Assembly (NCBI GenBank): GCA_021018995.1
Contig: CM037587.1
Coordinates: 68,219,604 to 68,283,603, forward strand
Origin: Chloranthus sessilifolius
Taxonomy: Eukaryota; Streptophyta; Magnoliopsida; Chloranthales; Chloranthaceae
DNA length: 64,000 bases
Direction: 5' to 3'
The notes under the pieces are model-generated. The model did no database searches. It saw nothing but the letters and a program-made list of their open reading frames with translations, and was not told where the DNA came from. The first letter of the stretch is position 1. Each line of letters opens with the position of its first letter. Shown here in pieces: positions 8,542 through 36,634 of the stretch. The position numbers and the translations under genes are program-made.

Positions 8542-10371
8542 TGTTGTCGCTCCAAGTGTGCCATAATTGTGTGCATTATGAATAAAGAATTAAAGAATTA
8601 AAGAATGCTAAGTTATATGGATGTTAACTTATGAAAGGAATATCGGCAGCACACTGGGGCTAACATTAGCCTGCAAGATCAGGGCCAATTGTAGCAAGTT
8701 TTAAAAGTAAGTATTTCAAGATCGTCCACAGAGAATTTGTCTAAAATGAGAGATAAACCTCCAGATCTGTGCTACCAGATCTGGCTCTATAATTATCTAG
8801 AAAGCAGATAAAGAGAGAGTGTTGGGTTTTGTCACGTTTAACTAAAAGCAAATAAAGAAAAGAACTAACTACGTGATCCAGATCCGAGTTGTGGAGGTGT
8901 TTAAAATAAATCAAATGCAGAAATAATAGCTTCATGTATTTTAGCCTTTGAATTTTAATGGAGAATCTGTATTCCAATAGAGCAGATTCAATCTTCATCT
9001 GGCTACCAGCACAGATGTAAGAGAAATAAATCCGAATTAAGGAATAGGTTTAGACTTATGGCTATGATCTGTCCAATGGTCACAGATCATCCAATAGTTG
9101 TGGCCTGTTCTTTAGTTCAGAACATGAACATCACTGTAAGTCTTTGCTAGAATTAGGTTACCAACGCTAATTCGCAGGGACAATGAATTAAGGGAAGTTG
9201 GATGCGGTGAGTGAATCTAAAGAAGTCTAATGCACTAAGGTGAACATTAGAACCCTCGACATGACTCCAATGGAGAAGACACAAATGACAGGAACTTTTT
9301 AACATCCAAAATTACAATTACAAAGCCTGGCTTTAGAAAGCCCTCGGACTTGCGTCTTGAATCCGATCTCCTTGGAGTTACAAATCACTCAACAACTCTC
9401 AAAAGTAAAACAAAAGAAGCTATTACAGGAGGTACGATAGGCTATCGTAGGAAGGTAGGGAAATAGAGATGAAAACTCAAAATCTGGATGCCACAATTGG
9501 GCAAATGTCTTCTCTATTTATAACTTGCCCTTGATCCTCCACAGGGCTGAGTTGACCAATCGAAGTGTTCAGATCTGGATTGCCCAATGGCGATTGAGCA
9601 CGGGGATCCAGATGCTTACGCCAATGAAAATGCTCGATCCGGTTCACCAATCAGCGCTAGAAGCATCAATTACATTATGGAATTCAAAAATCTGTTTGAG
9701 CTTCTAGAAGTTCCCGCCAAGTGATTTCATCTTTGAGCGCTCACATGGGTTGGAATATGCTTTTGGATCTTGATTGGAATCTTCCAAATGTCCTGGGTCA
9801 TTAAATGCATTGGGCGCATCACGAGAGATTCTTGAAATGCCCTTTAAACAAGCCGTAATTCCCGAATGTCCTTTAGAGTTTAAGTGCCTTTTCGCAAAGT
9901 GTTTTGGCTCCAAGTTCTTTTCAAAGCAATTTGGCTTCGAAAGTCTTTTCGCAGCGACTTCTCCCAGATCTTCTATTCGAAAAGGAAATTTCAACTATTC
10001 AGCAGACATGGTTCTTTTCGAGTAGTTCATTACTGACTCGTAATCAATTGAGCAGAACTTTGACCTTTTCGAAAAGTACTTTTTACTTTGATTTGAACTT
10101 TTAACTTGATTTCTTCTTTGCGAATGGATCCTTCTTCTTCTTGGTCTTTTCTTGCTCTTTTAGGACCTTTTTAGCCATTCTTTGAGGCTATTTCTTCACT
10201 CCTCTTTGAGCTTGACATGAGTTGTCGACTTTTGATCATTTTAGGATGCTTTTCGGACTTGGACTGTCTAATTGGTTAGGTAAAATGCACACTAAAGCAC
10301 TTATTTAGTCTTCTCAAGGGTCTTTCAAAGCTCATGTTTAGGGGTGAAAATGGTATTTTCACTACTTAACA
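8542..10371 (-). repeat. Array LTR 1
   Basis: 1830 bases, starting TGTTGTCGCTCC and ending ACTTAACA on +. A TATA box (TATAAATAG on -) lies at 9514-9522. Upstream of it on -, at about 9880-10080, is a cluster of TTTTCGCAAAG-like motifs. Open frames inside it are not genes. Confidence 0.93.
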
Positions 10372-12346
10372 CACCCAAACCTAAGCTTTGCTAGTCCACG
10401 AGCAAAGAAACATAAAAACAAAGTAAAGAGCCACTTTTGTAGGAACAGTGCATTTAGCATATGCAACAAGCCTTTTCAACCCCTAGGTGATCCCTAGAGG
10501 AGGAGTGAAGTCTCGAGGGTTTTCGAAGGTACCCACAAACTTCTCCATGGGACAGTTGGCATTAGTGCCTTTGTTATCTCATGAGCAATCAAAGATCGAA
10601 ATTAGTTACTCTTGAATCCATGTTTACACGAAATTTAGTTGTATTGTTTGCAAGGAGATTTCAACATTTATAAACCTCATGAATGTTTCAATATTTCCAA
10701 TCTGTGAGCAGTCATAGAAAATCATACAAATGTGCGAAGAAGCTCATCCTATGGATAAAAATTAGGTTATAAGTCATACTTAATGTGCTCAAGTTCCAAC
10801 CCAAACACTCACGGGGTACTCATCGCTGTTTTTGTTGAGGGGTTCATTTTCACTCAAGCTCAAGAGCGCTTACATCTCCCAAAATGGATCTCAGAAGCAT
10901 GAGCATAGGCATGATTCTAGGCAATGGCATCATTGACATCTCCTCACCATAGATTGGGGAACTTATCTCCACATGACAGCTCACTCAACTTTGGATCACA
11001 AGGACTTTTAATCTAGGTTTGTTTGTATGGCTTATGGAGTGAAGTTTCAAGGAAAGGCGCTTGAACAGGGTTTGAATTTGAGAACTCAGTGAAGTGCGTG
11101 AGATGGTTCATGACTCCACCTTTTGAGTTTAGCTTCTTTCTTCTTCTTCGAGATTCTCACATTCACAAATGATCAGCTTCTTTCTTTGATCTTGCATTTT
11201 TCATCATAAGGTCCCTTTTTTGCCTTTTTGCTTGCAACTTTTTCACATTGTTTGTCTCTTCCTTTCTCACCACCATATTGCCTGCTTTTGAGGTATTTTC
11301 TTCATTTTCTTGATGTTGCCTGTAAATGGTCCATCTTCGCTTCTTTTCTCCTTTACCTCCCAATTCTCAGAGTGAGGGAAGGCTGAATTGGTTCCATAGG
11401 TTCCAAGTACTTTTGGATATTTTTGATGAAGAATTGTAGGATTTACAGCTCAAATGGGGTACAAACAGGGCAGATTTTTCTTGGTTGGTTCTCATAGGTT
11501 CAAGTCCCAAAGAAGGCCTTGATCTTTTCCTCGCCATGAGTGTCACATTGTTTTAATTTGGAGTTTCCTAACTTCTAGTGGATCTAATGCCTCACCAATC
11601 TTTTGAATCGTAAAAAAATTGCCTCACCACTCTTCAACAGAGATGGAAAATATATGAGCTCAATTCTCACCGGTTATGGTTTTTCCTTGAGCTTTTAAGT
11701 ATATCTTTACCTTTTTCTCTTCCTTTTGACTTACTACGTCGATACCAAGATGTTTTTATGGTGTAATCATCATGGAAATGTAGACTATCGCAAGGTTTAG
11801 AATGTCTAAATTTTTGCAAAGAATATTTAAAAATTTCCTAGTTAACTTGATTCTTAAGTACATTAAATTCTTCCCGCTTACTTAGGTGATTTTTCCGCTT
11901 TATGCCGATCGTCCAGGGCAGATCTGTCATGCCACACCCCAAACTTATGAGGAGCAAAGTGTCCTCACCGGTTCAAAGGTGGCATGGTCCCATTATTCGA
12001 AAAACATGAAGGAAATCATAAACAAAGCAGAAGTAAAACATGACAAAGGAGCATTGGAGAAAGCAAAATTTATTGACTAGAAACATTAAGAAGAAAAGAA
12101 AATTAAAGATGAGGGGGACTGGATTAAGGAGAGGAAACTGTGAGGAACCGTGTCCTCACCGGGTTTGATGTAAGGGGAAAAATAAAATAGGCTTGCTCGC
12201 CATGATCTAATGAAAAGATTGGAAAAATAATTACGTAACAATGAATGTAAAATGAAAAAAGAAAAAAGAAAAGAAAAAGAAGTGCATGTAATTGGACAAA
12301 AGAACAGATTTATATATTATATTTAGAAACAAAGTACATGCAAACA

Positions 12347-12780
12347 TTAATAACTTGGATCAAAGTCGCTACCATAAGTTGGGTCATTGGGGTCTGAGCT
12401 AGAGTCACTGGTTGAACTTGAATCAGAGTTGGAATCAGAACTTGATGGTGATTTCTCAGGACTGGAATTCTTGAGCTCAGTGTACTCTTTGGACTTGATC
12501 TTCTTGGTGAGGCCCAGATGTTTGGTCAGTCGTCATTCGTTCTTGAGCTAGTTTGGTATGTTCTTGAACTAGTTGAGCTTGGAGCATAGCTACCTTGTGT
12601 TGCTCAAATTTCACCAATTGGTATGTTTGTCCAACCAGATCCCTCATCTTCTCTCTCTCTCAAATTGCATGAAATGCTCTAATTTTTATTTTGGCCTCAT
12701 AAGGGGTTCGGATGTAGGCCTCTGAATCAGCCATTTCTTCTCGCACATCCCTACGGATGTAGGGATTTTCACATGGCCCG
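12347..12780 (-). pseudogene. Reading-frame remnant with Ser/Asp-rich tail in the array element
   Basis: On the - strand this stretch reads as protein-like in all four internal regions (also about 18175-18560, 23933-24300 and 29664-30080). A helical, Gln-rich part (KVAMLQAQLVQEHTKLAQ) is followed by a charged part (KKIKSKEY) and a Ser/Asp-rich end finishing DPNDPTYGSDFDPSY. The shared stop position and the biased composition suggest the tail of a once real product, perhaps an extra ORF of an Athila-like ancestor. I do not recognise a family. It is broken in the copies seen here. Confidence 0.5.
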
Positions 12781-13078
12781 GGAGAGGTGGCATATCTAGG
12801 GAGGGATGGAGTGGTAGGGGACTAAAGGGGTCCAAATTGGGAGGGGGTGGGAAAACTGAGAAACTAGGGGCAGGATAAAAGAAGAAAGAAAACTAAGAAT
12901 AGAAAAATCTAAACTATATGCAGCAGAAAAATAAAACTGTAGGGACTGCATACAAAGCTTAAAAAAAATACAAAAGTGTTCCCACAAAAACAGAATTTGT
13001 GAATGCAAAATAGGAAAACAAAGTTAGAAACTAACTATACTCACAGAAAAATGACGAAAATTAGTAAAACTAGGACAA

Positions 13079-13304
13079 TGTTCCTAAAAACAGAATTTGA
13101 AACTAAAATTCCTAAAAACAGAATTTGAAACTAAAATTCCTAAAAACAGAATTTGAAACTAAAATTCCTAAAAACAGAATTTGAAAATCTAAAAACAGAA
13201 TGCTAAAATTCCTAAAAACAGAATTTGAAAATCTAAAAACAGAATTTGAAACTAAAATTCTTAAAAACAGAATTTGAAACTAACATTCCTAAAAACAGAA
13301 TTTT
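13079..13304. repeat. 28 bp minisatellite in array internal region 1
   Basis: About nine head-to-tail units with consensus CCTAAAAACAGAATTTGAAA plus CTAAAATT, some shortened. There are no unique spacers, so this is not CRISPR-like. Matching blocks occur in the other three internal regions. Confidence 0.9.
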
Positions 13305-14362
13305 TAATGCCAAAGGATACATCCTAAGCCCAAACAGAAAATCTAATGCCAAAAGCCTGAGATACTTATGAATCTAAGTGAAAAAAAAAATGATTAGCAG
13401 GAATACAGTGAAAAGCAAGATTCATAAGACTGACCCCTTTGTTGATGATGGGTATGAATAAAAAATAATGAAGCATGGGAGCACATATTAAAAACAGAGT
13501 TCATACACAGCTGAGACCCATTTATGATGAAGAAATCTCGAAGGAAAATAAAATAAGTGGGTCCATTGAATATTCAAAACAGCCTATGATTCACTACTCA
13601 TTGTCCTACATGATTCCTAAAAATAAAAAAAATGATCTCGAGTCCAGGATGGGAAAAGTGGATGCAAATGGAGAAAAACATTATCTGAAGATATATATAT
13701 ATTTTTTATTTTTATAATTTTCTATTTTTTATTTTTTACTTGTTTTGATCATTGTGCTCAACAAGAGCCCTTATTTACTCTTCCTGAAAATAATGAGAAA
13801 CAACTAAGAGATTTTCTATTTGTGTTTTCATTTTCTTTTATTTTGTATTTGGTTTTGTAAAAAATCAAAGATGCCTAAAAGATGCGTAAATTATAATCGA
13901 ACAAACAATAAACACAACAGAATCTGGTTCTCAAGAATTTAAAATAGAAAATGAATGCAAAGGAGAAGAGGATGCAAACTCAAGCAGATCTGCCCACTTT
14001 GGTCCAGATGTCCTCTTGTTGGACTGCCCAGATCCGCAAACAATCCAAAACCGCAGCAGACCTTATTCAAGATATTGACAAAAATAAAAGAAAAACTCAA
14101 AGCTACGCCCAAATTTGACAAAAGACAAAAGAGTGGCAAGCAGATTTATTCAAACAACTAGAAGGCAAAGAATGAAAACTGAAAAAAAAAATCTGTCATA
14201 AGAAATAGGTTTTCTATACAAAACTGCAGAGACATTTAATCAAGCACTTGGAATACAAAGTGTTTAAAGCAAAAACTAAAATGAAAATCAAATCTATAAA
14301 ATAAAAAAAAACTTAGGTCTACCAATTTTAGAACAAATTCCCAAGAACAGCGCCAAAAAACT

Positions 14363-16183
14363 TGTTGTCGCTCCAAGTGTGCCATAATTGTGCATTATGA
14401 ATAAAGAATTAAAGAATTAAAGAATGCTAAGTTATATGGATGTTAACTTATGAAAGGAATATCGGCAGCACACTGGGGCTAACATTAGCCTGCAAGATCA
14501 GGGCCAATTGTAGCAAGTTTTAAAAGTAAGTATTTCAAGATCGTCCACAGAGAATTTGTCTAAAATGAGAGATAAACCTCCAGATCTGTGCTACCAGATC
14601 TGGCTCTATAATTATCTAGAAAGCAGATAAAGAGAGAGTGTTGGGTTTTGTCACGGTTAACTAAAAGCAAATAAAGAAAAGAACTAACTACATGATCCAG
14701 ATCCGAGTTGGGGAGGTGTTTAAAATAAGACAAATGCGTAAATAATAGCTTCATGTATTTTAGCCTTTGAATTTTAATGGAGAATCAGATTCCAATAGAG
14801 CAGATTCAATCTTCATCCGCTACCAAAGACAGATGTAAGAGAAATAAACCAATTAAGGAATAGGTTTAGACTTATGGCTATGATCCGTCCAATGGTCACA
14901 GATCATCCAATAGTTGTGGCCTTTTCTTTAGTTAGAACATGAACATCATCAGTAATGCTGCTAGAATTAGGTTACCAACGCTAATTCGCAGTGACAATGA
15001 ATTAAGGGAAGTTGGATGCGGTGAGTGAATCTAAAGAAGTCTAATGCACTAAGGTGAACATTCGTAACCCTCGACATGACTCCAATGGAGAAGACACAAA
15101 TTACAAAGACAACCTTTTAAAATCCAAAATTACAATTACAAAGCACGGCTTTAGAAAGCCCTCGGACTTGCGTCTTGAATCCGATCTCCTTGGAGTTACA
15201 AATCACTCTCAACAACTCTCAAAAGTAAAACAAAAGAAGCTATTACAGGAGGTACAGATAGGCTATCAATGGAAGGTAGGGAAATAGAGATGAAAACTCA
15301 AAACTGGATGCCACAATTGGGCAAATGTCTTCTCTATTTATAGCTTTCCCTTGATCCGCATTGTATGAATTGACCAATCGAAGTGTTCAGACCGGATTGC
15401 CCAATGGCGCTTGAGCACGGGATCCAGATCTGTCCGCCAATGAAAATGCTCGATCCGTTCACCAATCAGCGCTAGAAGCATCAATTGCTATGGAATTCAA
15501 AAATCTGTTTGAGTTCTAGAAGTTCCCGCCAAGTGATTTCATCTTTGAGCTCACATGGGTTGGAATATGCTTGGATCTTGATTGGAATCTTCAAATGTCC
15601 TGGCCGTTAAATGCATTGGGCGCATGCGAGATTACTCGAAATGCCCTTTAAACAAGTCAGAATTCCCCGTAATGTCCTTTCAGAGAGTTTAAGTGCCTTT
15701 TCGCAAAGTGTTTTGGCTCCAAGTTCTTTTCGCAAAGCAATTTGGCTTCGTAAAGTCTTTTCGCAAAGGACTTCTCCCGGATCTTCTATTCGAAAAGGAA
15801 ATTTCAACTATTCAACAGTAACATGGTTCTTTCGAGTAGTTCATTAACTCCGTAATCAATTCAATGTAACTTTGACCTTTCGAAAAGTACTTTTACTTTG
15901 CGATTTGAACTTTTAACTTGATTTCTTCTTTGCGAATGGATCCTTCTTCTTCTTCGTGTCTTTTCTTGCTCTTTAGGACCTTTTAGCCATTCGAGGCTAT
16001 TTCTTCACTCCTCTTTGAGCTTGACATGAGTTGTCGCCTTTTTGATCATTTTAGGATGCTTTTCGGACTTGGACCTGTCTAATTGGTTAGTGTAAATGCA
16101 CACTAAAGCACTTATTTAGTCTTCTCAAGGGTCTTTCAAAGCTCATGTTTAGGGGTGAAAATGGTATTTTTCACTACTTAACA
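14363..16183 (-). repeat. Array LTR 2
   Basis: 1821 bases with the same ends, TATA box and motif cluster as LTR 1. It is shared by the internal regions on both sides, with no target duplication at its borders. Confidence 0.93.
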
Positions 16184-19100
16184 CACCCCAAACCTAAGCT
16201 TTGCTAGTCCCCGAGCAAAGAAACAAAAAACAAAGTAAAGAGCCACTTTTGTAGGAAGCACAGGTGCATTTAGCATATGCAATAAGCCTTTTCAACCCCT
16301 AGGTGATCCCTAGAGGAGGAGTGAAGTCTCCGAGGGTTTTCATGAAGGTACCCACAAACTTCTCCATGGGACAATTGGCATTAGTGCAATCGTTATCTCA
16401 TGAGCAATCAAAGATCGAAATTAGTTACTCTTGAATGTAAATTTAGTTGTATTGTTTGCAAGGAGATTTCAACATTTATAAACCTCATGAATGTTTCAAT
16501 ATTTCCAACTGTGAACAAATACAGAAAATCATACAAATGTGCCAAGCAGAAGCTCATCCTATGGATAAAAATTAGGTTATAAGTCATACTTAATGTGCTC
16601 AAGTTCCAACCCAAACACTCACCGTGGTATACTCTCATCGTGTTTTTTGAGGGGGTTCTTTTCACTCAAGCTCAAGAGCGCTTACATCTCCCAAATGGAT
16701 CTGTAAGCATGAGCATAGGCCCTGCTTTCGTGCAATGGCATCATTGACATCTCCTCACCATAGATTGGGGAACTTCTTATCTCTACATGACATGTACTCA
16801 CTCAACTTTGGATCACAAGGACTTTTAATCTAGGTTGGGTTGTATGGGTTATGGAGTGAAGTTGCAAGGAAAGGCAGCTTGAACAGGGGTGTGAATTTGG
16901 GAACTCGTGAAGTGCGTGAGATGGTTCATGACTCCACCTTTTGAGTTTAGCTTCTTTCTTCTTCTTTTCGAGATTCTCACATTCACAATGATCAGTTCTT
17001 TTCTTTGATCTTGCATTTTTCATCATAAGGTCCCTTTTTGCCTTTTTTGCTTGCAACTTTTTCACATTGTTTGTCTCTTCCTTTCTCCCACCATATTGCC
17101 TGCTTTTTGAGGTATTTTCTCTTCATTTTCTTGATGTTGCCTTGAAATGGTCCATCTTCAATTCTTTCTCCTTTACCTCCTAATTCTCGTGAGTGAGGGA
17201 AGGCTGAATTGGTTCCATAGGTTCGTACTTTTGGATATTTTTGATGAAGAATTGTAGGATTTATGTACTCAAATGGGGTACAAACAGGGCAGATTTTTCT
17301 TGGTTGGTTCTCATAGGTTCAAGTCTGTCCAAAGAAGGCCTTGATCTTTTCCTCGCTTTCATGAGTGTCTTACTTGTTTTAATTTGGAGTTTCCTAACTT
17401 CTAGTGGATCTAATGCCTCACCAATCTTTTGAATCGGAAAAAAAATTGCCTCACCACTCTTCAACAGAGATGGAAAATATATGAGCTCAATTCTCACCGG
17501 TTATGGTTTTTCCTTGAGCTTTTAAGTATATCTTTACCTTTTTCTTCCTTTTGACTTACTACGTCTTGATACCAAGATGTTTTTATGGTGTAATCATCAT
17601 GGAAATGTAGACTATCGCAAGGTTTAGAATGTCTAAATTTTTTGCAAAGAATATTTAAAATTTCCTAGTTAACTTGATTCTTAAGTACATTAAATTCTTC
17701 CCTCGCTTACTTAGGTGATTTTTCCGCTTTATGCCGACCGTCTTAGGGCAGGATCTGTCACACACCCCCAAACTTATGAGGAGCAAAGGTCCTCACCGGT
17801 TCAAAGGTGGCATGGTCCCATTATTCAGAAAACATGAAGGAAATCATAAGCAGAAGTAAAACATGACAAAGGAGCATTGGAGAAAGCAAAATTTATTGAC
17901 TAGAAACATTACTGTAGAAGAAAAAGAAAATTAAAGATGAGGGGGACTGGGATTAAGGGAGAGGAAACCAGAGGAACCGTGTCCTCACCGGTTTGATGTA
18001 AGGGGAAAAATAAAATAGGCTTGCTCGCCATGAGATCTAAAGAAAAGATTGGAAAAAATAATTACGTAACAATGAAGAAAAAGTAAAAAAAAGAAAAAAG
18101 AAAAGAAAAAGAAGTGCATGAATTGGACAAAAGAACAGATTTATATATTATATTTAGAAACAAAGTACATGCAAACATTAATAACTTGGATCAAAGTCGC
18201 TACCATAAGTTGGGTCATTGGGGTCCGAGCTAGAGTCACCGGGTTGAACTTGAATCGAGTTGAATCGAACTTGATGGTGATTTCTCAGACCGGAATTCTT
18301 GAGCTCGTACTCTTTGGACTTGATCTTCTTGGTGAGGCCCAGATGTTTGGTCAGTGTTTCTGTCACGTTTTGAGCTAGTTTGGTATGTTCTTGAACTAGT
18401 TGAGCTTGGAGCATAGCTACCTTTGTGTTGCTCAAATTTCACCAATTGGTATGTTTGTCCAACCGATCCCTCATCTTCTCTCTCTCAAATTGCATGAAAT
18501 GCTCTAATTTTTATTTTGGCCTCATAAGGGGTTCGATGTAGGCCTCTGAATCAGCCAAATTTTTCGCACATCCCTACGGATGTAGGGATTTTCCATCATG
18601 GCTCGGGAGAGGGTGGCATATCTAGGAGGGGATGGAGTGGTAGGGACTAAAGGGGGTCCATGGGAGGGGGGGGGAAAACGAGAAACTAGGGCGCAGGATA
18701 AAAGAAGAAAGAAAAACTAAGAATAGAAAAATCTAAACTATATGCAGAAAAAAAATAAAATGTAGGATGCATACAAAGTTTAAAAAATAGAAAAGTGTTG
18801 ACACAAAAACAGAATTTGTGAATGCAAAATAGGAAAACAAACTTAGAAACTAACTATACTCACAGAAAAATGACGAAAATTAGTAACACTAGGACAATGT
18901 TCCTAAAAACAGAATTTGACACTAAAATTCTAAAAACAGAATTTGAAACTAAAATTCCTAAAACAGAATTTGAAACTAAAATTCCTAAAACAGAATTTGA
19001 AAATCTAAAATGTAATGCTAAAATTCCTATAAACAGAATTTGAAAATCTAAAAACAGAATTTGAAACTAAAATTCTTAAAAACAGAATTTGAAACTAACA

Positions 19101-20159
19101 TTCCTAAAAACAGAATTTTTAATGCCAAAGGATACATCCTAAGCCCAAACAGAAAATCTAATGCCAAAAGCCTGAGATACTTATGAATCTAAGTGAAAAA
19201 AAAAATGATTAGCAGGAATACAAAGGAAAAGCAAGATTCATAAGACCCTGACCCTTTGTTGATGATGGGTATGAATAAAAATAATGAAGCATGGGAGCAC
19301 ATATTAAAAACAGAAGTTCATACACAATGAGACCCATTTATGATGAAGAAATCTCAAGGAAAATAAAATAAGTGGGTCCATTGAATATTCAAACAGCCTA
19401 TGATTCACTACTCATTGTCCTACATGATTCCTAAAAATAAAAAAAATGATCTCAAAGAGTCCAGATGGGAAAAGTGGATGCAAATGGAGAAAAACAAATT
19501 TACATAAAGATATATATATATTTTTATTTTTATAATTTTCTATTTTTTTATTTTTACTTGTTTTGATCAGCCAGCTCAACAAGAGCCCTTATTTACTATC
19601 TGAAAATAATGAGAAACAACTAAGAGATTTTCTATTTGTGTTTTCATTTTCTTTTATTTTGTATTTGGTTTTGTAAAAAATCAAGATGCCTAAAAGAGAA
19701 ATTATAATCGAACAAACAATAAACACAACATGAATCTGGTTCTCAAGAATTTAAAAATAGAAAATGAATGCAAAGGAGAAGAGGATGCAAACTCAAGCAG
19801 ATCTGCCCACTTTTAGTCCAGATGTTCTTGTTGGACTTGCTCCCAGATCTGCAACAATCCAAAACCGCAGATTTTATTCCAAAGATATTGACAAAATAAA
19901 AGAAAACTCAAAGCACGCCCAAATTTGACAAAAAGACAAAAGAGTGGCAGCAGCATTTATTCAAACAACTAGAAGGCAAAGAATGAAAACTTAGAAAAAA
20001 AAAATCTAAAGAAAAATAGGTTTTCTATACAAAACTGCAGAGACATTTAATCAAGCACTTGGAATACAAAGTGTGTTTAAAGCAAAACTAAAATGAAAAT
20101 CAAATCTATAAAATAAAAAAAACTTAGGTCTACCAATTTTAGAACAAACTTAAAAAACT
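16184..20159 (-). mobile_element. Array internal region 2
   Basis: 3976 bases, same order of parts as internal region 1: minisatellite at 18899-19118 and reading-frame remnant at about 18175-18560. AT-rich segments are almost identical to the other copies. Confidence 0.85.
18899..19118. repeat. 28 bp minisatellite in array internal region 2
   Basis: Same unit and general order as in region 1, about nine units. Confidence 0.88.
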
Positions 20160-21957
20160 TGTTGTCGCTCCAAGTGTGCCATAATTGTGTGCATTATGAA
20201 TAAAGAATTAAAGAATTAAAGAATGCTAAGTTATATGGATGTTAACTTATGAAAGGAATATAAAAGACATGGGCTAACATTGACCTGCAAGATCAGGGCC
20301 AATTGTAGCAAGTTTTAAAAGTAAGTATTTCAAGATCGTCCACAGAGAATTTGTCTAAAATGAGAGATAAACCTCCAGATCTGTGCTACCAGATCTGGCT
20401 CTATAATTATCTAGAAAGCAGATAAAGAGAGAGTGTTGGGTTTTGTCACGTTTAACTAAAAGCAAATAAAGAAAAGAACTAACTACGTGATCCAGATCCG
20501 AGTTGTGGAGGTGTTTAAAATAAATCAAATGCAGAAATAATAGCTTCATGTATTTTAGCCTTTGAATTTTAATGGAGAATCAGATTCCAATAGAGATTCA
20601 ATCTTCATCCGCTACCAAGATGATGTAAGAGAAATAAACCAATTAAGGAATAGGTTTAGACTTATGGCTATGATCCGTCCAATGGTCACAGATCATCCAA
20701 TAGTTGTGGCCTATTCTTTAGTTCGTAACATGAACATCATCAGAAGTGCCGCTAGAATTAGGTTACCAACGCTAATTCGCAGGTGGACAATGAATTAAGG
20801 GAAGTTGGATGCGGTGAGTGAATCTAAAGAAGTCTAATGCACTAAGGTGAACATTCGTAACCCTCGACATGACTCCAATGGAGAAGACACAAATTACAAA
20901 GAACCTTTAAAATCCAAAATTACAATTACAAAGCACGGCTTTAGAAAGCCCTCGGACTTGCGCTCTTGAATCCGATCTCCTTGGAGTTACAAATCACTCT
21001 CAACAACTCTCAAAAGTAAAACAAAAGAAGTTATTATAGGAGGTAGATAGGCTATCCGGACCGGAAGGTAGGGAAATAGAGATGAAAACTCAAAACTGGA
21101 TGCCACAATTGGGCAAATGTCTTCTATTTATAGCTTTCCTTGATCATGAATTGACCAATCGAAGTGTTCGATCCGGATTGCCCAATGGCGCTTGAGCACG
21201 GGATCCAGATCTTTCGCCAATGAAAATGCTCGATCCGTTCACCAATCAAAGCGCTTAGAAGCATCAATTCGTATGGAATTCAAAATCTGTTTGAGCTTTA
21301 GAAGTTCCCGCCAAGTGATTTCATCTTTGAGCGCTCACATGGGTTGGAATATGCTTTTGGATCTTGATTGAATCTTCCAAATGTCCCTGGGGTCATTAAA
21401 TGCATTGGGCGCATGCGAGATTCTGAAATGCCCTTTAAACAATGTAATTCCCCGTAATGTCCTTTCAGAGAGTTTAAGTGCCTTTTCAAAAGTGTTTTGG
21501 CTCCGGTTCTTTTCGCAAAGCAATTTGGCTTCGTAAAGTCTTTTCGCAGGACTTCTCCCAGATCTTCTATTCGAAAAGGAAATTTCAACTATTGAGCGAA
21601 CATGGTTCTTTTCGAGTAGTTCATTTCCGTAATCAATTCAACAGAACTTTGACCTTTCGAAAAGTACTTTTTACTATGATTTGAACTTTTAACTTGATTT
21701 CTTCTTTAATGGATCCTTCTTCTTCTTCGTGTCTTTTCTTGCTCTTTTAGGACCTTTTTAGCCATTGTCCGAGGCTATTTCTTCACTCCTCTTTGAGCTT
21801 GACATGAGTTGTCACTTTTGATCATTTTAGGATGCTTTTCGGACTTGGACCCGTCTAATTGGTTAGTAAAATGCACACTAAAGCACTTATTTAGTCTTCT
21901 CAAGGGTCTTTCAAAGCTCATGTTTAGGGGTGAAAATGGTATTTTCACTACTTAACA
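20160..21957 (-). repeat. Array LTR 3
   Basis: 1798 bases, same ends and layout as the other copies, no flanking duplication. Confidence 0.93.
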
Positions 21958-24900
21958 CACCCAAACCTAAGCTTTGCTAGTCCCCGAGCAAAGAAACATA
22001 AAAAACAAAGTAAAGAGCCACTTTTGTAGGAAGCAGTGCATTTAGCATATGCAACAAGCCTTTTCAACCCCTAGGTGATCCCTAGAGGAGGAGTGAAGTC
22101 TCGAGGGTTTTCAAGAAGGTACCCACAAACTTCTCCATGGGACAGCTTGGCATTAGTGCAATCGTTATCTCATGAGCAATCAAAGATCAAATTAGTTACT
22201 CTTGAATCCATGTTTACACAGTAAATTTAGTTGTATTGTTTGCAAGGAGATTTCAACATTTATAAACCTCATGAATGTTTCAATATTTCCAATCTGTGAA
22301 CATCATAGAAAATCATACAAATGTGCCAGAAGAAGCTCATCCTATGGATAAAAATTAGGTTATAAGTCATACTTAAGGTGCTCAAGTTCCAACCCAAACA
22401 CTCACGGGGTATACTCTCAGTGTTTTTGTTGAGGGGTTCGTTTTCACTCAAGCTCAAGAGCGTTACATCTCCCAAATGGATCTGTAAGCATGAGCATAGG
22501 CATTTCAGGTACTGGCATCATTGACATCTCCTCACCATAGATTGGGGAACTTCTTATCTCTACATGGCAGCTCACTCAACTTTGTATCACAAGGACTTTT
22601 AATCTAGAATTGTTTGTATGGCTTATGGAGTGAAGTTTCAAGGAAAGGCGCTTTGACAGGGTTTGAATTTGAGAACTCGTGAAGTGCAGGAGATAGTTCA
22701 TGACTCCACCTTTTTGAGTTTAGGTTCTATCTTCTTCTTTTCGAGTTTCTCACATTCACAGCGATCAGTCCTTTCTATGATCTTGCATTTTTCATCATAG
22801 GGTCCCTTTTTTGCCTTTTTGCTTGCAACTTTTTCACATTGTTTGTCTCTTCCTTTCTCACCACCATATTGCCTGCTTTTGAGGTATTTTCTTCATTTTC
22901 TTGATGCTCTTGAAATGGTCCATCTTCAATTCTTTCTCCTTTACCTCCTAATTCTCAGAGTGAGGGAAGGCTGAATTGGTTCCATAGGTTCAGAAGTACT
23001 TTTGGATATTTTTGATGAAGAATTGTAGGATTTACTCAAATGGGGTACAAACAGGGGCAGATTTTTCTTGGTTGGTTCTGTTAGGTTCAAGTTCAAAGAA
23101 GGCCTTGATCTTTCCTCGCCATGAGTGTCATATTACTTGTTTTAATTTGGAGTTTCCTAACTTCTAGTGGATCTAATGCCTCACCAATCTTTTGAATCGA
23201 AAAAAAAATTGCCTCGCCACTCTTCAAGAGATGGAAAATATATGAGCTCAATTCTCACCGGTTATGGTTTTTCCTTGAGCTTTTAAGTATATCTTTACCT
23301 TTTCTCTTCCTTTGACTTACTACGCTGATACCGATGTTTTTATGGTGTAATCATCATGGAAATGTAGACTATCGCAAGGTTTAGAATGTCTAAATTTTTG
23401 CAAAGAATATTTAAAATTTCCTAGTTAACTTGATTCTTAAGTACATTAAATTCTTCCTTACTTAGGTGATTTTTCCGCCTTTATGTCGATCGTCCAGGGC
23501 AGATCTGTCCGCCACACCCCAAACTTATGAGGAGCGTGTCCTCACCGGTTCAAAGGTGGCATGGTCCCATTATTCTGAAAAACATGAAGGAAATCATAAA
23601 AGCAGAAGTAAAACATGACAAAGGAGCATTGGAGAAAGCAAAATTTATTGACTAGAAACATTACAGAAGAAAAGAAAATTAAAGATGAGGGGGACTGGGA
23701 TTAAGGGAGAGGGGCGAAACCTGTGAGGAACCGTGTCCCCACTGGTTTGATGTAAGGGGAAAAAATAAAATAGGCTTGCTCGCTACAGATCTAACAGAAA
23801 AGATTGGAAAAAATAATTACAGAACAATGAATGTAAAACAAAAAAAGAAAAAAGAAAAGAAAAAGAAGTGCATGAATTGGACAAAAGAATGATTTATATA
23901 TTATATTTAGAAACAAAGTACATGCAAACATTAATAACTTGGATCAAAGTCGCTACCATAAGTGACGAGCTAGAGTCACCTTGGTTGAACTTGAATCGAG
24001 TTGGAATCTAACTTGATGGTGATTTCTCAGACCGGAATTCTTGAGCTCGTGTACTCTTTGGACTTGATCTTCTTGGTGAGGCCTGTATGTTTGGTCAGTC
24101 AATTGCTTTTCTTGTTCTTGAGCTAGTTTGGTATGTTCTTGAACTAGTTGAGCTTGGAGCATAGCTACCTTGTGTTGCTCACGACCAATTGGTATGTTTG
24201 TCCAACGATCCCTCATCTTCTCTCTCTCAAATTGCATGAAATGCTCTAATTTTTTATTTTGGCACATCTCACGGATGTAGGGATTTTCTGTCATGGCTCG
24301 GGAGAGGGTGGCATATCTAGGAGGGATGGAGTGGTAGGGGACTAAAGGGGGTCCATGGGAGGGGGGTGGGAAAAACCTGAGAAACTAGGGGCAGGATAAA
24401 AGAAGAAAGAAAACTAAGAATAGAAAAATCTAAACTATATGCGAAAAAAATAAAAATGTAGGGACTGCATACAAAGTTTAAAAAAAATAGAAAAGTGTTG
24501 ACACAAAAACAGAATTTGTGAATGCAAAATAGGAAAACAAAGTTAGAAACTAACTATACTCACAGAAAAATGACGAAAATTAGTAAAACTAGGACAATGT
24601 TCCTAAAAACAGAATTTGAAACTAAAATTCCTAAAAATGAAATTTGAAACTAAAATTCCTAAAAACAGAATTTGAAACTAAAATTCCTAAAAACAGAATT
24701 TGAAACTAAAATTCCTAAAAACAGAATTTGAAAATCTAAAAACAGAATTTGAAACTAAAATTCTTAAAAACAGAATTTGAAACTAACATTCCTAAAAACA
24801 GAATTTTTAATGCCAAAGGATACATCCTAAGCCCAAACAGAAAATCTAATGCCAAAAGCCTGAGATACTTATGAATCTAAGTGAAAAAAAAAATGATTAA

Positions 24901-25853
24901 AGGTGAATACAAAGGAAAAGCAAGATTCATAAGACCAATTTGTTGATGATGGGTATGAATAAAAATAATGAAGCATGGGAGCACATATTAAAACAGAGTT
25001 CATACACAAATGAGACCCATTTATGATGAAGAGATCTCGAAGGAAAATAAAATAAGTGGGTCCATTGAATATTCAAACCAGCCTATGATTCACTACACAT
25101 TGTCCTACATGATTCCTAAAAATAAAAATGATCTCAAAGAGGTCCAGATGGGAAAAGTGGATGCAAATGGAGAAAAAACATATGAAAGATATATATATAT
25201 TTTTATTTTTATAATTTTCTATTTTTTATTTTTTACTTGTTTTGATCACCGGGCTCAACAAGAGCCCTTATTTACTCTGCTGAAAATAATGAGAAACAAC
25301 TAAGAGATTTTCTATTTGTGTTTTCATTTTCTTTTATTTTGTATTTGGTTTTGTAAAAAAATCAAGATGCCTAAAAGATGCAGCAGAAATTATAATCGAA
25401 CAAACAATAAACACAATGAATCTTGGTTCTCAAGAATTTAAAAATAGAAAATGAATGCAAAGGAGAAGAGGATGCAAACTCAAGCAGATCTGCCCATTTT
25501 AGTCCAGATGTTTGTTGGACTACCGCCCAGATCTCGAATAATCCAAAAACTGCAGCAGACTTATTCCAAAGATATTGACAAAAATAAAAGAAAAACTCAA
25601 AGCACGCCCAAATTTGACAAAAGACAAAAGAGTGGCAGCAGATTTATTCAAACAACTAGAAGGCAAAGAATGAAAACTTAGAAAAAAAAAATCTGCAAGA
25701 AATAGGTTTTCTATACAAAATCATGAGACATTTAATCAAGCACTTGGAATACAAAGTGTGTTTAAAGCAAAACTAAAATGAAAATCAAATCTATAAATAA
25801 AAAAAAACTTAGGTCTACCAATTTTAGAACAAATTCTCAAGAAATGAAAAACT
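21958..25853 (-). mobile_element. Array internal region 3
   Basis: 3896 bases, the shortest copy, partly because the minisatellite (24599-24812) has fewer units and the reading-frame remnant (about 23933-24300) is shorter. Otherwise the order is the same. Confidence 0.85.
24599..24812. repeat. 28 bp minisatellite in array internal region 3
   Basis: Same unit, about eight copies. The irregular short units seen in the middle of the other copies are fewer here. Confidence 0.88.
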
Positions 25854-27650
25854 TGTTGTCGCTCCAAGTGTGCCATAATTGTGTGCATTATGAATAAAGA
25901 ATTAAAGAATTAAAGAATGCTAAGTTATATGGATGTTAACTTATGAAAGGAATATCAAAGACATTGGGGCTAACATTAGCCCCGCAAGATCGGGCCAATT
26001 GTAGCAAGTTTTAAAAGTAAGTATTTCAAGATCGCCCACAGAGAATTTGTCTAAAATGAGAGATAAACCTCCGATCTGTGCTACCAGATTCGCTCTATAA
26101 TTATCTAGAAAGCGAGATAAAGAGAGAGTGTTGGGTTTTGTCACGCTTAACTAAAAGCAAATAAAGAAAAGAACTAACTACGTGATCCAGATCCGAGTTG
26201 TGGAGGTGTTTAAAATAAATCAAATGCGTAAATAATAGCTTCATGTATTTTAGCCTTTGAATTTTAATGGAGAATCAGATTCAATAGAGCAGATTCAATC
26301 TTCATCCGCTACCAAAGATGATGTAAGAGAAATAAATCCGAATTAAGGAATAGGTTTAGACTTATGGCTATGATCATCCAATGGTCACAGATCATCCAAT
26401 AGTTGTGGATTCTTTAGTTCGTAACATGAACATCAGGTGTCGCTAGAATTAGGTTACCAACGCTAATTCGCAGGGTGGACAATGAATTAAGGAAGTTGGA
26501 TGCGGGTGAGTGAATCTAAAGAAGTCTAATGCACTAAGGTGAACATTCGTAACCCTCGACATGACTCCAATGGAGAAGAACAAAGAACCTTTTAAAATCC
26601 AAAGTTACAATTACAAAGCACGGCTTTAGAAAGCCCTCGGACTTGCGATCCTTGAATCCGATCTCCTTGGAGTTACAAATCACTCTCAACAACTCTCAAA
26701 AGTAAAACAAAAGAAGCTATTATAGGAGGTACAGGATAGGCTATCGGCGGAAGGTAGAAATAGAGATGAAAACTCAAAATCTGGATGCCACAATTGGGCA
26801 AATGTCTTCTATTTATAGCTTTCCCTTGATCCTCGCATGTGAATTGACCAATCAAGTGTTCAGATCCGGATTGCCCAATGGCGATTGAGCACGGGATCCA
26901 GATCTGTTTCGCCAATGAAAATGCTCGATCCGTTCACCAATCAGCGCTAGAAGCATCAATTTTATGGAATTCAAAAATCTGTTTGAGCTTCTAGAAGTTC
27001 CCGCCAAGTGATTTCATCTTTGGCGTTCACATGGGTTGGAATATGCTTTTGGATCTTGATTGGAATCTTCCAAATGTCCTCGGGTCATTAAATGCATTGG
27101 GGCGCATGAGATTCTTGAAATGCCCTTTAAACAAGCGTAATTCCCGTAATGTCCTTTCAGAGAGTTTAAGTGCCTTTTCGCAGTGTTTTGGCTCCGTAAG
27201 TTCTTTTCGCAAAGCAATTTGGCTTGAAAGTCTTTTCGCAGGACTTCTCCCGGATCTTCTATTCGAAAGGAAATTTCAACTATTCAGAACATGGTTCTTT
27301 TCGAGTAGTTCATTCTGACTCCGTAATCAATTCGCAGAACTTTGACCTTTTGAAAAGTACTTTTTACTTTGCGATTTGAACTTTTAACTTGATTTCTTCT
27401 TTGCGAATGGATCCTTCTTCTTCTTCGTGTCTTTCTTGCTCTTTTAGGACCTTTTAGCCATTCGAGGCTATTTCTTCACTCCTCTTTGAGCTTGACATGA
27501 GTTGTCGACTTTTGATCATTTTAGGATGCTTTTCGGACTTGGACTGTCTAATTGGTTAGTAAAATGCACACTAAAGCACTTATTTAGTCTTCTCAAGGGT
27601 CTTTCAAAGCTCATGTTTAGGGGTGAAAATGGTATTTTCACTACTTAACA
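25854..27650 (-). repeat. Array LTR 4
   Basis: 1797 bases, same ends and layout as the other copies, no flanking duplication. Confidence 0.93.
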
Positions 27651-30387
27651 CACCCAAACCTAAGCTTTGCTAGTCCCCGAGCAAAGAAACATAAAAACAA
27701 AGTAAAGAGCCACTTTTGTAGGAAGCACAGTGCATTTAGCATATGCAATAAGCCTTTTCAACCCCTAGGTGATCCCTAGAGGAGGAGTGAAGTCTCCCGA
27801 GGGTTTTCAGTGAAGGTACCCACAAACTTCTCCATGGGACAGTTGGCATTAGTGCAATGTTATCTCATGAGCAATCAAAGATCGAAATTAGTTACTCTTG
27901 AATCCATGTTTACACGTAAATTTAGTTGTATTGTTTGCAAGGAGATTTCAACATTTATAAACCTCATGAATGTTTCAATATTTCCAATCTGGAACAAATC
28001 ATAGAAAATCATACAAATGTGCCAAAGTGAAGCTCATCCTATGGATAAAAATTAGGTTATAAGTCATACTTAATGTGCTCAAGTTCCAACCCAAACACTC
28101 ACCGTGGTATACTCATCAATGTTTTTTGTTGAGGGGTTCGTTTTCACTCAAGCTCAAGAGCGATTACATCTCCCAAATGGATCTGTAAGCATGAGCATAG
28201 GCATGATTCTTAGGCAATGGCATCATTGACATCTCCTCACCATAGATTGGGTCACATCTTATCTCAACATGACAGCACACTCAACTTTGGATCACAAGGA
28301 CTTTTAATCTAGGTTTGTTTGTATGGCTTATGGAGTGAAGTTTCAAGGAAAGGCGCTTGAACAGAGGGTTTGAATTTGAGAACTCAGGAAGTGCAGGAGA
28401 TGGTTCATGACTCCACCTTTTTGAGTTTAGCTTCTTTCTTCTTCTTTTCGAGATTCTCACATTCACATGATCAGCTTCTTTCTTTGATCTTGCATTTTTC
28501 ATCATAAGGTCCCTTTTTTGCCTTTTTGCTTGCAACTTTTTCACATTGTTTGTCTCTTCCTTTCTCACCACCATATTGCCTGCTTTTGAGGTATTTTCTT
28601 CATTTTCTTGATGTTGCCTTAAAATGGTCCATCTTCAATTCTTTCTCCTTTACCTCAATTCTCGAGTGAGGGAAGGCTGAATTGGTTCCATAGGTTCAGT
28701 GCAAGTACTTTTGGATATTTTTGATGAAGAATTGTAGGATTTATACTCAAATGGGGTACAAGCAGGGCAGATTTTTCTTGGTTGGTTCGTTAGGTTCAAG
28801 TCATTCCAAAGAAGGCCTTGATCTTTTCCTCGGTTCATGAGTGTCTGTTACTTGTTTTAATTTGGAGTTTCCTAACTTCTAGTGGATCTAATGCCTCGCC
28901 CAATCTTTTGAATCGAAAAAAATTGCCTTAGTCACTCTTCAACAGAGATGGAAAATATATGAGCTCAATTCTCACCGGTTATGGTTTTTCCTTGAGCTTT
29001 TAAGTATATCTTTACCTTTTTCTTCCTTTTGACTTACTACGTCGATACCGATATGTTTTTATGGTGTAATCATCATGGAAATGTAGACTATCGCAAGGTT
29101 TAGAATGTCTAAATTTTTGCAAAGAATATTTAAAAATTTCCTAGTTAACTTGATTCTTAAGTACATTAAATTCTTCCTCGCCATTACTTAGGTGATTTTT
29201 CCGCTTTATGCCGCCCCAGGGCAGATCTCTCGCCACACCCCAAACTTATGAGGAGCAAAGGTCTCACCGGTTCAAAGGTGGCATGGTCCCATTATTCAGT
29301 GAAAAACATGAAGGAAATCATAAAATGCAGAAAAGTAAAACATGACAAAGGAGCATTGGAGAAAGCAAAATTTATTGACTAGAAACATTACAGAGAAGAA
29401 AAGAAAATTAAAGAGAGGGGGGATGGGATTAAGGAGAGAGGGAAAACTGTGAGGAACCGTGTCCTCACCGGTTTGATGTAAGGAAAAAATAAAATAGGCT
29501 TGCTCTCTGAGATCTAACAGAAAAGATTGGAAAAAATAATTACAGAACAATGAACAGAAAACTGAAAAAAAGAAAAAAAGAAAAGAAAAAAGAAGTGCAC
29601 AGAATTGGACAAAAAGAACAGATTTATATATTATATTTAGAAACAAAGTACATGCAAACATTAATAACTTGGATCAAAGTCGCGACCATAAGTTGGGTCA
29701 TTGGGGTCCGAGCTAGAGTCACCGGTTGAACTTGAATCGAGTAGTTGGAATCGAACTTGATGGTGATTTCTCAGATTTGGAATTCTTGAGCTCGGTACTC
29801 TTTGGACTTGATCTTCTTGGTGAGGCCCAGGATGTTTGGTCAGTGGTGTTTCTCACTGTTCTTGAGCTAGTTTGGTATGTTCTTGAACTAGTTGAGCTTG
29901 GAGCATAGCTACCTTGTGTTGCTCAAATACGACCAATTGGTATGTTTGTCCAACGGATCCTCATCTTCTCTCTCTCAAATTGCATGAAATGCTCTAATTT
30001 TTATTTTGGCCTCATAAGGGGTTGGATGTAGGCCTCCAAATCAGCTTTATACGCACATCCCTCACGGATGTAGGGATTTTCTGTCATGGCTGGGAGAGGG
30101 TGGCATATCTAGGGAGGGGATGGAGTGGTAGGGGACTAAAGGGGTCCACTGGGAGGGGGGTGGGAAAACCCGAGAAACTAGCGCAGGATAAAAGAAGAAA
30201 GAAAAACTAAGAATAGAAAATCTAAACTATATGCAGAAAAATAAAAATGTAGGGATGCATACAAAGTTTAAAAAAATAGAAAAGTGTTGACACAAAACAG
30301 AATTTGTGAATGCAAAATAGGAAAAACAAAGTTAGAAACTAACTATACTCACGTAAAATGACGAAAATTAGTAAAACTAGGACAATG

Positions 30388-30600
30388 TTCCTAAAAAGAA
30401 TTTGAAACTAAAATTCCTAAAACAGAATTTGAAACTAAAATTCCTAAAAAAGAATTTGAAACTAAAATTCTAAAAACAGAATTTGAAAATCTAAAAGAAT
30501 GCTAAAATTCCTAAAAAGAATTTGAAAATCTAAAACAGAATTTGAAACTAAAATTCTTAAAACAGAATTTGAAACTAACATTCCTAAAAACAGAATTTTA
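30388..30600. repeat. 28 bp minisatellite in array internal region 4
   Basis: Same unit, about nine copies, close in order to regions 1 and 2. Confidence 0.88.
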
Positions 30601-31620
30601 ATGCCAAAGGATACATCCTAAGCCCAAAGAAAATCTAATGCCAAAAGCCGAGATACTTATGAATCTATGAAAAAAATGATTAAAGGAATACAAAGGTGAA
30701 AAGCAAGATTCATAAGACTAATTTGTTGATGATGGGTATGAATAAAAATAATGAAGCATGGGAGCACATATTAAAAGCAGAGTTCATACACAAATGAGTG
30801 AGACCCATTTATGATGAAGAAATCAAGGAAAATAAAATAAGTGGGTCCATTGAATATTCAAAACAGCCTATGATTCACTACTCATTGTCCTACATGATTC
30901 CTAAAATAAAAAAAATGATCTCAAAGAGTCCAGATGGGAAAAGTGGATGCAAATGGAGAAAACATTTATACGAAAGATATATATATTTTTTATTTTATAA
31001 TTTTCTATTTTTTTTATTTTTTACTTGTTTTGGATCAAGCTCAACAAGAGCCCTTATTTACTACCGCTGAAAATAATGAGAAACAACTAAGAGATTTTCT
31101 ATTTGTGTTTTCATTTTCTTTTATTTTGTATTTGGTTTTGTAAAAAATCGGCATGCCTAAAAGATGAGAAATTATAATCAACAAACAATAAACACAATGA
31201 ATCTGGTTCTCAAGAATTTAAAATAGAAAATGAATGCAAAGGAGAAGAGGATGCAAACTCAAGCAGATCTGCTCCACTTTAGTCCAGATGCTCCTTGTTG
31301 GACGGCCGCTCAGATCTCGCAATAATCCAAAACTGCAAAGATACCTTATTCCGATATTGACAAAATAAAAAAGAAACTCAAAGCACGCCCAAATTTGACA
31401 AAAGACAAAAGAGTGGCAGATTTATTCAAACAACTAGAAGGCAAAGAATGAAAACTTAGAAAAAAAATCACTGCAAAGAAAATAGGTTTTCTATACAAAA
31501 TCAAAGAGACATTTAATCAAGCACTTGGAATACAAAGTGCGTTTAAAGCAAAAACTAAAATGAAAATCAAATCTATAAAATAAAAAAAAAAACTTAGGTC
31601 TACCAATTTTAGAACAAATT

Positions 31621-31637
31621 CCCCGGCAACGGCGCCA
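31621..31637 (-). other. Asp-tRNA primer-binding site of the array element
   Basis: On + the sequence CCCCGGCAACGGCGCCA equals the 3' end of plant Asp-tRNA, so the - strand carries its 17-base complement, TGGCGCCGTTGCCGGGG. It lies six bases from the LTR 5 edge, as expected for a primer site. Asp-tRNA priming is typical of Athila elements. This is the clearest of the four sites. Confidence 0.93.
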
Positions 31638-31643
31638 AAAACT

Positions 31644-33452
31644 TGTTGTCGCTCCAAGTGTGCCATAATTGTGTGCATTATGAATAAAGAATTAAAGAAT
31701 TAAAGAATGCTAAGTTATATGGATGTTAACTTATGAAAGGAATATCGGCAGCACACTGGGGCTAACATTAGCCTGCAAGACCAGGGCCAATTGTAGCAAG
31801 TTTTAAAAGTAAGTATTTCAAGATCGTCCCACAGAGAATTTGTCTAAAATGAGAGATAAACCTCAGATCTGTATACCAGATCTCGCTCTATAATTATCTA
31901 GAAAGATAAAGAGAGAGTGTTGGGTTTTGTCACGTTTAACTAAAAGCAAATAAAGAAAAGAACTAACTACGTGATCCGGATCCGAGTTGTGGAGGTGTTT
32001 AAAATAAATCAAATAAATAATAGCTTCATGTATTTTAGCCTTTGAATTTTAATGGAGAATCAGATTCAATAGAGCAGATTCAATCTTCATCTGGCTACCA
32101 AAGACAGATGTAAGAGAAATAAATCGAATTAAGGAATAGGTTTAGACTATGGCTATGATCCGTCAATGGTCACAGATCATCCAATAGTTGTGGCTCATGT
32201 TCTTTAGTTCGTAACATGAACATCATCAAGTGCTAGAATTAGGTTACCAACGCTTAATTCGCACAGGGACAATGAATTAAGGGAAGTTGGATGCGTGAGT
32301 GAATCTAAAGAAGTCTAATGCACTAAGGTGAACATTCGAACCCTCGACATGACTCCAATGGAGAAGACACAAATTACAACCTTTTAAAATCCAAAATTAC
32401 AATTACAAAGCACGGCTTTAGAAAGCCCTGACTTGCGTCTTGAATCCGATCTCCTTGGAGTTACAAATCACTCTCAATAACTCTCAAAAGTAAAACAAAA
32501 GAAGCTATTACAGGAGGTACAGATAGGCTATCGACCGGAAGGTAGGGAAATAGAGATGAAAACTCAAAACTGGATGCCACAATTGGGCAAATGTCTTCTA
32601 TTTATGGCTTTCCTTGATCCCGCATGTATTGAATTGACCAATCAAGTGTTGGATCCGGATTGCCCAATGGCGCTTGAGCACGGGATCCAGATCTGCTCGC
32701 CAATGAAAATGCTCGATCCGTGTTCAATCAGCGCTAGAAGCATCAATTTATGGAATTCAAAATCTGTTGAGTTCTAGAAGTTCCCGCCAAGTGATTTCAT
32801 CTTTGAGCGCTCACATGGGTTGGAATATGCTTTTGGATCTTGATTGGAATCTTCCAAATGTCCTCGGGCCGTTAAATGCATTAGCTGAGATTATAAATGC
32901 CCTTTAAACAAGTCGTAATTCCCCGTAATGTCCTTTCAGAGAGTTTAAGTGCCTTTTCGCAAAGTGTTTTGGCTCCGTAAGTTCTTTTCGCAAAGCAATT
33001 TGGCTTCGTAAAGTCTTTTCGCAGGACTTCTCCCGATCTTCTATTCGAAAAGGAAATTTCAACTATTCAATGTAACATGGTTCTTTTCGAGTAGTTCATT
33101 ATGTACTCCGTAATCAATTCGAACAGAACTTTGACCTTTTCGAAAAGTACTTTTTACTTTGCGATTTGAACTTTTAACTTGATTTCTTCTTTGCGAATGG
33201 ATCCTTCTTCTTCTTCAGGTCTTTTCTTGCTCTTTTAGGACCTTTTTAGCCATTGCTGAGGCTATTTCTTCACTCCCTCTTTGAGCTTGACATGAGTTGT
33301 CAGCTTTTTGATCATTTTAGGATGCTTTTCGGACTTGGACCTGTCTAATTGGTTAGCTGTAAAATGCACACTAAAGCACTTATTTAGTCTTCTCAAGGGT
33401 CTTTCAAAGCTCATGTTTAGGGGTGAAAAATGGTATTTTTCACTACTTAACA
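31644..33452 (-). repeat. Array LTR 5 (outer, 5' in element sense)
   Basis: 1809 bases. This is the outer 5' LTR in the sense of the element. It ends on + with ACTTAACA and is followed by the right GTGGT duplication. The clearest primer site of the array adjoins it. Confidence 0.93.
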
Positions 33453-33457
33453 GTGGT
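33453..33457. repeat. Right target-site duplication of the array (GTGGT)
   Basis: GTGGT follows the final CA of LTR 5 and matches 8537-8541. Beyond it Tat gag resumes. Confidence 0.85.
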
Positions 33458-36400: not shown

Positions 36401-36634
36401 GAGCGCCGAATGGGCCAGTAACGATAAAGGGTGCTTGGGTGAGAGGGATAGATGTGAACATTTCCTCCGCATGGGAGTGAGTTGGGGAATCTGGCAGGGA
36501 TGAGTCAGAATCGACATAGGCCGGGTCCACAGCCCATGACATGGCTTGGTGTCGGGTAGGGTACGGGTACCTCGGGTGGGGCCCGTAACGGGATGACAGA
36601 GGGTATGATGATGCCGTTGTGCCGACACCAACAA
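33458..36634 (-). pseudogene. Tat element gag region
   Basis: The - strand reads gag-like from about 36634 leftwards. The first part (35220-36634) is rich in Pro, Ser, His and Met, with PPST and MPNP-type runs. The middle (34280-34930) has core gag features such as SDLARQKQNPNETF and the open piece at 34283-34471 (SSFADLVRNTNRCEDAI). The last part (33443-33959) includes VEPLNLSDYFSNPAPQIEPL and a Pro-rich stretch. Gag forms the element's virus-like particle. The region is in several frames and clearly a fossil. It continues into pol on the far side of the array. Confidence 0.75.
35500..35700. repeat. GGGCC/ATGGG-rich short repeats in Tat gag
   Basis: On + a loose unit of roughly 25-35 bases built from GATGGGTCTGG, CATGGGCC and CTTGATGGG recurs about six times. 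On the coding strand it yields Pro/His-rich low-complexity protein. This looks like local slippage inside gag. Confidence 0.6.

Follow-up and report, generated by a model that had tools for sequence, protein, structure and literature searches.

A four-unit array of LTR-sharing retrotransposon copies at one insertion site in Chloranthus sessilifolius, with divergence between units that resembles sequencing error

The window analysed here is a 64,000 bp stretch of Chloranthus sessilifolius contig CM037587.1 (assembly GCA_021018995.1, positions 68,219,604–68,283,603). At positions 8542–33452 it contains a head-to-tail array of retrotransposon units that share their long terminal repeats (LTRs). 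The initial annotation had described this array as five LTRs alternating with four internal regions, and had proposed a comparison of the window with itself. When this comparison was made by BLAST, the off-diagonal matches of a head-to-tail array were seen at steps of approximately 5.7–5.8 kb, and the exact borders confirmed the alternation, with an LTR at either end. The LTRs, which are 1797–1830 bp and all read TGTTGT...TTAACA on the plus strand, are located at 8542–10371 (LTR 1), 14363–16183 (LTR 2), 20160–21957 (LTR 3), 25854–27650 (LTR 4) and 31644–33452 (LTR 5). They separate internal regions of 3896–3993 bp, at 10372–14362, 16184–20159, 21958–25853 and 27651–31643 (internal regions 1 to 4, respectively), so that LTRs 2, 3 and 4 are each common to two neighbouring units. 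Each internal region also includes a minisatellite with approximately 7.6 units of 27–28 bp (13081–13303, 18900–19118, 24600–24806 and 30388–30598).

The whole array is flanked by a single 5 bp target duplication, GTGGT, found at 8537–8541 and 33453–33457. The per-position frequency of GTGGT is only 0.0015 to the left of the array and 0.0009 to its right, which makes a chance match exactly at both borders unlikely. No target duplication is present at the inner LTR borders. All four inner left borders are AAACT, all four inner right borders are CACCC, and only element bases are found there. The flanking sequences are the two sides of an older gypsy element, which is on the minus strand and which we take to be of the Tat type. 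Its pol side (3524–8536) contains integrase and RNase H frames that match Pfam at 3524–4063 and 5214–5792, along with translated pieces that we presume to be reverse transcriptase and protease. The presumed gag side (33458–36679) was assigned by its position and by the joined frame described next, and in the three frames scanned there no Pfam match was found at E 0.01. When up to 400 bases from each flank were joined with 5 bp removed, the minus strand carried a stop-free piece of 174 amino acids (aa) that spanned the joint; with 0, 4 or 6 bp removed, the pieces were 146, 123 and 144 aa. The empty site is in frame. Together, the precise borders, the single duplication and the 174 aa joined frame point to one precise insertion into the older element, and the tandem array very probably goes back to that single insertion. 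Thus, the shared inner LTRs, the single outer GTGGT pair and the single insertion site of the initial annotation are all upheld. On the host gag side, there is also a strong GC skew (0.48 and 0.43) at 35001–37000, over a proline-rich frame that is C-rich on the minus strand.

In unit 4, the minus strand has a 17-base primer-binding site, which we take to be of the tRNA-Asp type, at 31621–31637, just inward of the LTR. The array element therefore reads on the minus strand, which corrects the initial annotation, and LTR 5 is the 5' LTR of the array and LTR 1 the 3' LTR. In the self-BLAST, a related LTR that is 72–74% identical to those of the array was found on the plus strand at 61527–63434. 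After it come a primer site almost identical to that of the array, a leader with 85–91% identity to the start of the internal regions over 44–54 bp, and a frame with a weak match to Retrotrans_gag (E 4.4e-4, below the Pfam cut-off). This element, which occupies 61527–63984 and is cut by the end of the window, may be a relative of the array element with coding capacity. The LTR and leader homology with this relative, its weak gag match and the presumed primer type suggest that the array element belongs to the Ty3/gypsy superfamily.

The array element had been labelled non-coding. Its longest stop-free pieces on the element strand are 76–143 aa per internal region, and none of ten stop-free pieces from the four internal regions matched a Pfam family at cut-off. 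As the frames are so often broken by the error-like changes described below, the lack of a match does not make the element non-coding, and that label is unproven. When the gag-like frame of the related element was compared with the internal regions using tblastn, only two matches were returned, with E values of 7–8. Across the 64 kb window, no Rfam family reached its gathering score and a tRNA scan returned nothing.

At face value, the units are clearly diverged. Raw pairwise differences (p) are 0.041–0.056 between LTRs and 0.055–0.078 between internal regions. These values fall once CG and CHG sites are set aside, and unit identity is high. The initial annotation had proposed trees of the units as a means of separating a preformed concatemer from later exchange. 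For this comparison, distances and counts of splits were used, with no tree built, and a star was obtained. Singletons number 330 in the internal regions, compared with 20, 18 and 18 sites for the splits; the LTRs have 106 singletons and 28 sites distributed over all ten two-against-three splits, with 1–7 sites each. Taken naively, a star is the outcome expected from a preformed concatemer. However, the test is largely void, as most of the differences carry the signature of sequencing error, and we do not accept the star-shaped distances as evidence for a concatemer. For the same reason, trees of the units carry little history, and the array can neither be dated nor its formation traced from most of the differences. 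We also rejected a biological interpretation of the primer site, which is intact only in the outermost 5' unit. The site is CG-rich and has been scrambled in units 1–3 in the same way as other motif sites, which makes it poor evidence of decay. If the differences are errors, both the star and the seemingly decayed primer sites are probably artefacts.

In the alignments, long identical stretches are interrupted by patches of a few bases at which several or all units differ. The internal regions include 25 invariant runs of at least 30 columns where 1.1 were expected, which rejects evenly spread random error. The same places change across units, with 314 five-base windows changed in at least three internal regions against 75 ± 16 in circular shifts. 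Most of this variation is found at two kinds of site. Among the 823 variable columns of the internal regions, 655 (80%) are in patches that touch CG or CHG, 128 are beside homopolymers of at least four bases and 40 are neither; for the 349 variable columns of the LTRs, the corresponding numbers are 303 (87%), 19 and 27. In the internal regions, 98 of 174 patches touch CG or CHG, where random placement gave a mean of 52 and a maximum of 74; in the LTRs the count is 60 of 84, against a mean of 31 and a maximum of 47. The proportion of k-mers found changed in one or more of the other units is 0.65 for CG, 300/420 for CAG/CTG and 134/192 for CCG/CGG, over a trinucleotide baseline of 0.29. When the internal regions were set against randomly mutated copies, CAG (0.71 vs 0.40) and CG (0.68 vs 0.43) were in excess, but GAC, which has the same composition as CAG and contains no CHG site, was not (0.35 vs 0.36). 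Intact frames elsewhere in the window, which were picked for being intact, contain 20–42 motif sites each.

The form of the changes is also distinctive. In pairwise comparisons, 2–14% of the outcomes at CG and CHG motifs are deamination-like and 24–39% include an indel, where indels at 14 other trinucleotides were seen in 6–16%. Homopolymers were counted with identical flanks required and every unit taken as the reference, and two variable runs with modal lengths of 1 and 2 were excluded from the series. Their length varied in 0/43 runs of three, 7/23 runs of four and 11/16 runs of five in the internal regions, and in 3/24 runs of three and 6/17 runs of four in the LTRs. Finally, the outer LTR ends, which lie beside unique host sequence, are cleaner than the inside of the array. 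When the related LTR was used to decide between variants, it was matched at 52 of 55 variable columns by the outer end of LTR 1 and at 130 of 220 by the four remaining LTRs; in the outer 150 columns of LTR 5, agreement is 9/10, versus 11/40 in the other LTRs.

In the available text of two sources, native plant DNA is called less accurately by nanopore sequencing, with methylation poorly represented in training (PMC9749173, PMC7501810). For bacteria, methylation motifs are described as the site of most nanopore consensus errors, with homopolymers second (PMC6591954). Nanopore-type error at methylated sites and in homopolymers, with short-read repair confined to the edges, would explain together why differences gather at motifs, why so many outcomes are indels, why homopolymer lengths vary and why the array edges are cleaner. 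It is highly probable, judging from these patterns, that sequencing error is the main source of the divergence between units, and we infer that the reads were of nanopore origin and were unevenly polished.

The measure of divergence that depends least on alignment is the number of isolated single-column substitutions, which is 22 in the four internal regions and 9 in the five LTRs, or roughly 0.1% per copy. At a substitution rate often used for plants, 1.3e-8 per site and year, 0.1% per copy corresponds to approximately 0.1 million years and 0.9% between copies to approximately 0.35 million. As isolated substitutions are few, the array is probably young.

Several results weigh against error as the main source of the differences. 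Gaps are not placed in homopolymers to excess (44/166 deletions in the internal regions, 0.286 expected; 19/90 in the LTRs, 0.222 expected), and co-localisation of single columns is not significant (324/603 vs 296 ± 24; 115/222 vs 106 ± 12). The outer-end ranges compared above were picked after inspection, and their columns are not independent. Moreover, a consensus from many reads should give every unit the same error, and units that differ imply that their support from reads is thin or mixed. How much divergence remains varies with the aligner: off-motif p is 0.003–0.009 with a permissive aligner, and 0.008–0.022 for LTRs and 0.021–0.035 for internal regions with MAFFT, in whose alignment the value is raised by shifted columns. 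The permissive aligner still leaves 7–22 off-motif indel events per pair of LTRs and 38–66 per pair of internal regions. In addition, 12 of the 22 isolated substitutions in the internal regions fall in one 250-column stretch and are mostly private to internal regions 2 and 3 (16782–17033 and 22559–22805); unlike the changes in the rest of the array, they resemble ordinary mutations or a patch of conversion. This exceeds the maximum (10) in 5000 random placements, a statistic that is post hoc, and the stretch may be a real sequence difference, e.g. a conversion from another family member.

On balance, and with these points in mind, we favour the following explanation. An element of Ty3/gypsy type would have inserted once, on the minus strand and with a 5 bp duplication, into the host element, where it separated the gag side from the protease side. 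It would recently have been multiplied to four LTR-sharing units, most likely by unequal LTR exchange between sister chromatids or homologues. The real units would be near-identical, and most of the 4–8% divergence would be residual nanopore-type consensus error at methylated CG and CHG sites and in homopolymers. Polishing by short reads would fail where the reads fit several units, and short reads anchored in the unique flanks could have corrected the array edges over a few hundred bases, but not its inside.

The step in this explanation that is least secure is the exchange. Unequal LTR exchange gives exactly an LTR-internal-LTR-internal-LTR structure with one outer duplication, and insertion of multimeric complementary DNA (cDNA) gives the same. 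The initial annotation had named these two origins, exchange after insertion and a tandem formed before it; the available text of PMC11899658 leaves open the same pair, and the structure fits either. We lean slightly towards exchange because a 25 kb cDNA is long, and that this is a preference counts against the explanation as a whole.

Rather less likely, though a serious alternative, is that a preformed multimer was inserted whole, as recombined cDNAs or as a reverse-transcribed multi-unit transcript (e.g. of a one-LTR circle), with the one 5 bp duplication made by integrase. The single target duplication agrees with this, as does the lack of a divergence gradient between inner and outer LTRs. 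In the accessible parts of the sources, multi-unit transcripts are reported for Cassandra (PMC7215508) and a route from circle to tandem transcript is proposed (PMC11899658). However, a product of 25 kb would be long for one particle, and the equal distances between units, which derive mostly from error-like changes, do not speak in its favour.

The number of units, like the differences between them, rests on an assembly of doubtful base accuracy inside the array, and four may be an assembly product, with fewer or more units really at the site. Units of 5.8 kb that, error-like changes aside, are near-identical are uncountable without reads longer than the array, and the error-like changes indicate weak base support. 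We nevertheless consider a wrong count unlikely, as one element would be hard to inflate to four if reads span 7.6 kb, and each unit has its own set of changes.

It is very improbable that the divergence is real and old, in an array of at least 2 million years whose methylated sites have decayed. Differences do sit on CG and CHG, which in plants are the symmetrical contexts of methylation, but decay gives C-to-T changes, and the deamination-like outcomes are the minority (2–14%, against 24–39% with indels), so ordinary methylation decay was rejected. Such an age is also contradicted by the few isolated substitutions, the cleaner outer LTR ends and the steep rise of homopolymer variation with run length. 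That the scrambles are real DNA, left by a methylation-directed scarring process distinct from deamination, in which a large proportion of the methylated CG and CHG sites of a young array become small indels in each copy and which is absent beside single-copy sequence, is still less credible.

Elsewhere in the window, a second Ty3/gypsy element is found on the minus strand at 42571–46421, with a Tf2-1-like SH3 domain, RNase H and an RVP_2 protease in separate frames and a weak zinc-knuckle match below cut-off. A 282 aa frame at 40645–41490 (minus strand) has a match to Pfam Transposase_32 that is below cut-off, and a degenerate TCATA microsatellite of approximately 49 units is present at 56393–56648. 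A direct repeat of 280 bp, with copies 12.7 kb apart at 39577–39856 and 52247–52526, is 87.9% identical (34 mismatches and no gaps in blastn). This repeat and another of 70 bp, both outside the array, were not relied on as controls, as the permissive aligner opens 7 and 10 gaps in them.

The practical value of this array is as a warning. In an assembly with uneven polishing, a young LTR tandem can look several per cent diverged, with star-shaped trees, primer sites that seem decayed and no reading frames, and can therefore be given too great an age and labelled non-coding. Before trees of units are used to decide between exchange and a concatemer, enrichment of the differences at CG and CHG sites and in homopolymers should be checked.

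Arrays with the same layout are known from other element groups. In yeast, multimeric Ty1 arrays consist of LTR-sharing head-to-tail units at one site and are attributed to cDNA recombination. The layout is that seen here, in another element group and another host, and the array described here is known from its sequence alone. Elements of the LARD type are large non-autonomous LTR elements that, like the array element, combine long LTRs with a long internal region lacking recognised domains, but in the array any coding content is obscured by the error-like breaks.

Arrays of Cassandra and other TRIM elements (PMC7215508; Wukong, PMC4528315) likewise lack recognised coding domains and alternate LTRs with internal regions, and both exchange and concatenated cDNA have been proposed for them in the parts of these papers that are available. 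Cassandra arrays with 13 LTRs and 12 internal regions were found by polymerase chain reaction (PMC7215508). However, those 12 units span approximately 6 kb and have a 5S region in the LTR, whereas here a single unit is approximately 5.8 kb, the LTRs are 1.8 kb and no Rfam family reaches its gathering score in the window, so that the array element differs from Cassandra and the TRIM group. Satellites derived from tandem repeats of retroelements are also known, according to the available text of PMC7004042. The initial annotation had seen in the array an early step towards a satellite. Satellites are long arrays of many units, and there are four units at one site here and nothing further, so that suggestion was not borne out.

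The closest counterparts are the plant tandem LTR insertions of PMC11899658 (TLI1, TLI2 and the IDENTAM set), to the available part of which the following statements refer. As in our array, an LTR-bounded alternation with shared inner LTRs is flanked by one short target duplication. Most of these tandems are gypsy elements, and TLI2 is inside another transposon, as is the array described here. TLI1 and TLI2 have two internal regions and three LTRs, where we find four and five. At its single rice site, TLI2 occurs as alleles with two units, with one unit and with a solo LTR. For one rice genome, the same source counts 66 LTR-related tandems; the structure is clear in 28, and 10 of these have perfect 5-base duplications. 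Its counts for Arabidopsis, almond and cotton are 11, 11 and 130, respectively. Tandem LTR arrays are thus published as common in plants, and the claim that they are uncommon is not supported. Coding domains are retained in each of the 28 rice tandems selected, whereas no Pfam family was matched at cut-off in the ten pieces searched here. Accurate sequence of arrays with at least four units could settle the question of origin that PMC11899658 leaves open. We conclude that the array in C. sessilifolius is an example, with longer units and four of them, of an LTR tandem structure already known from plants.

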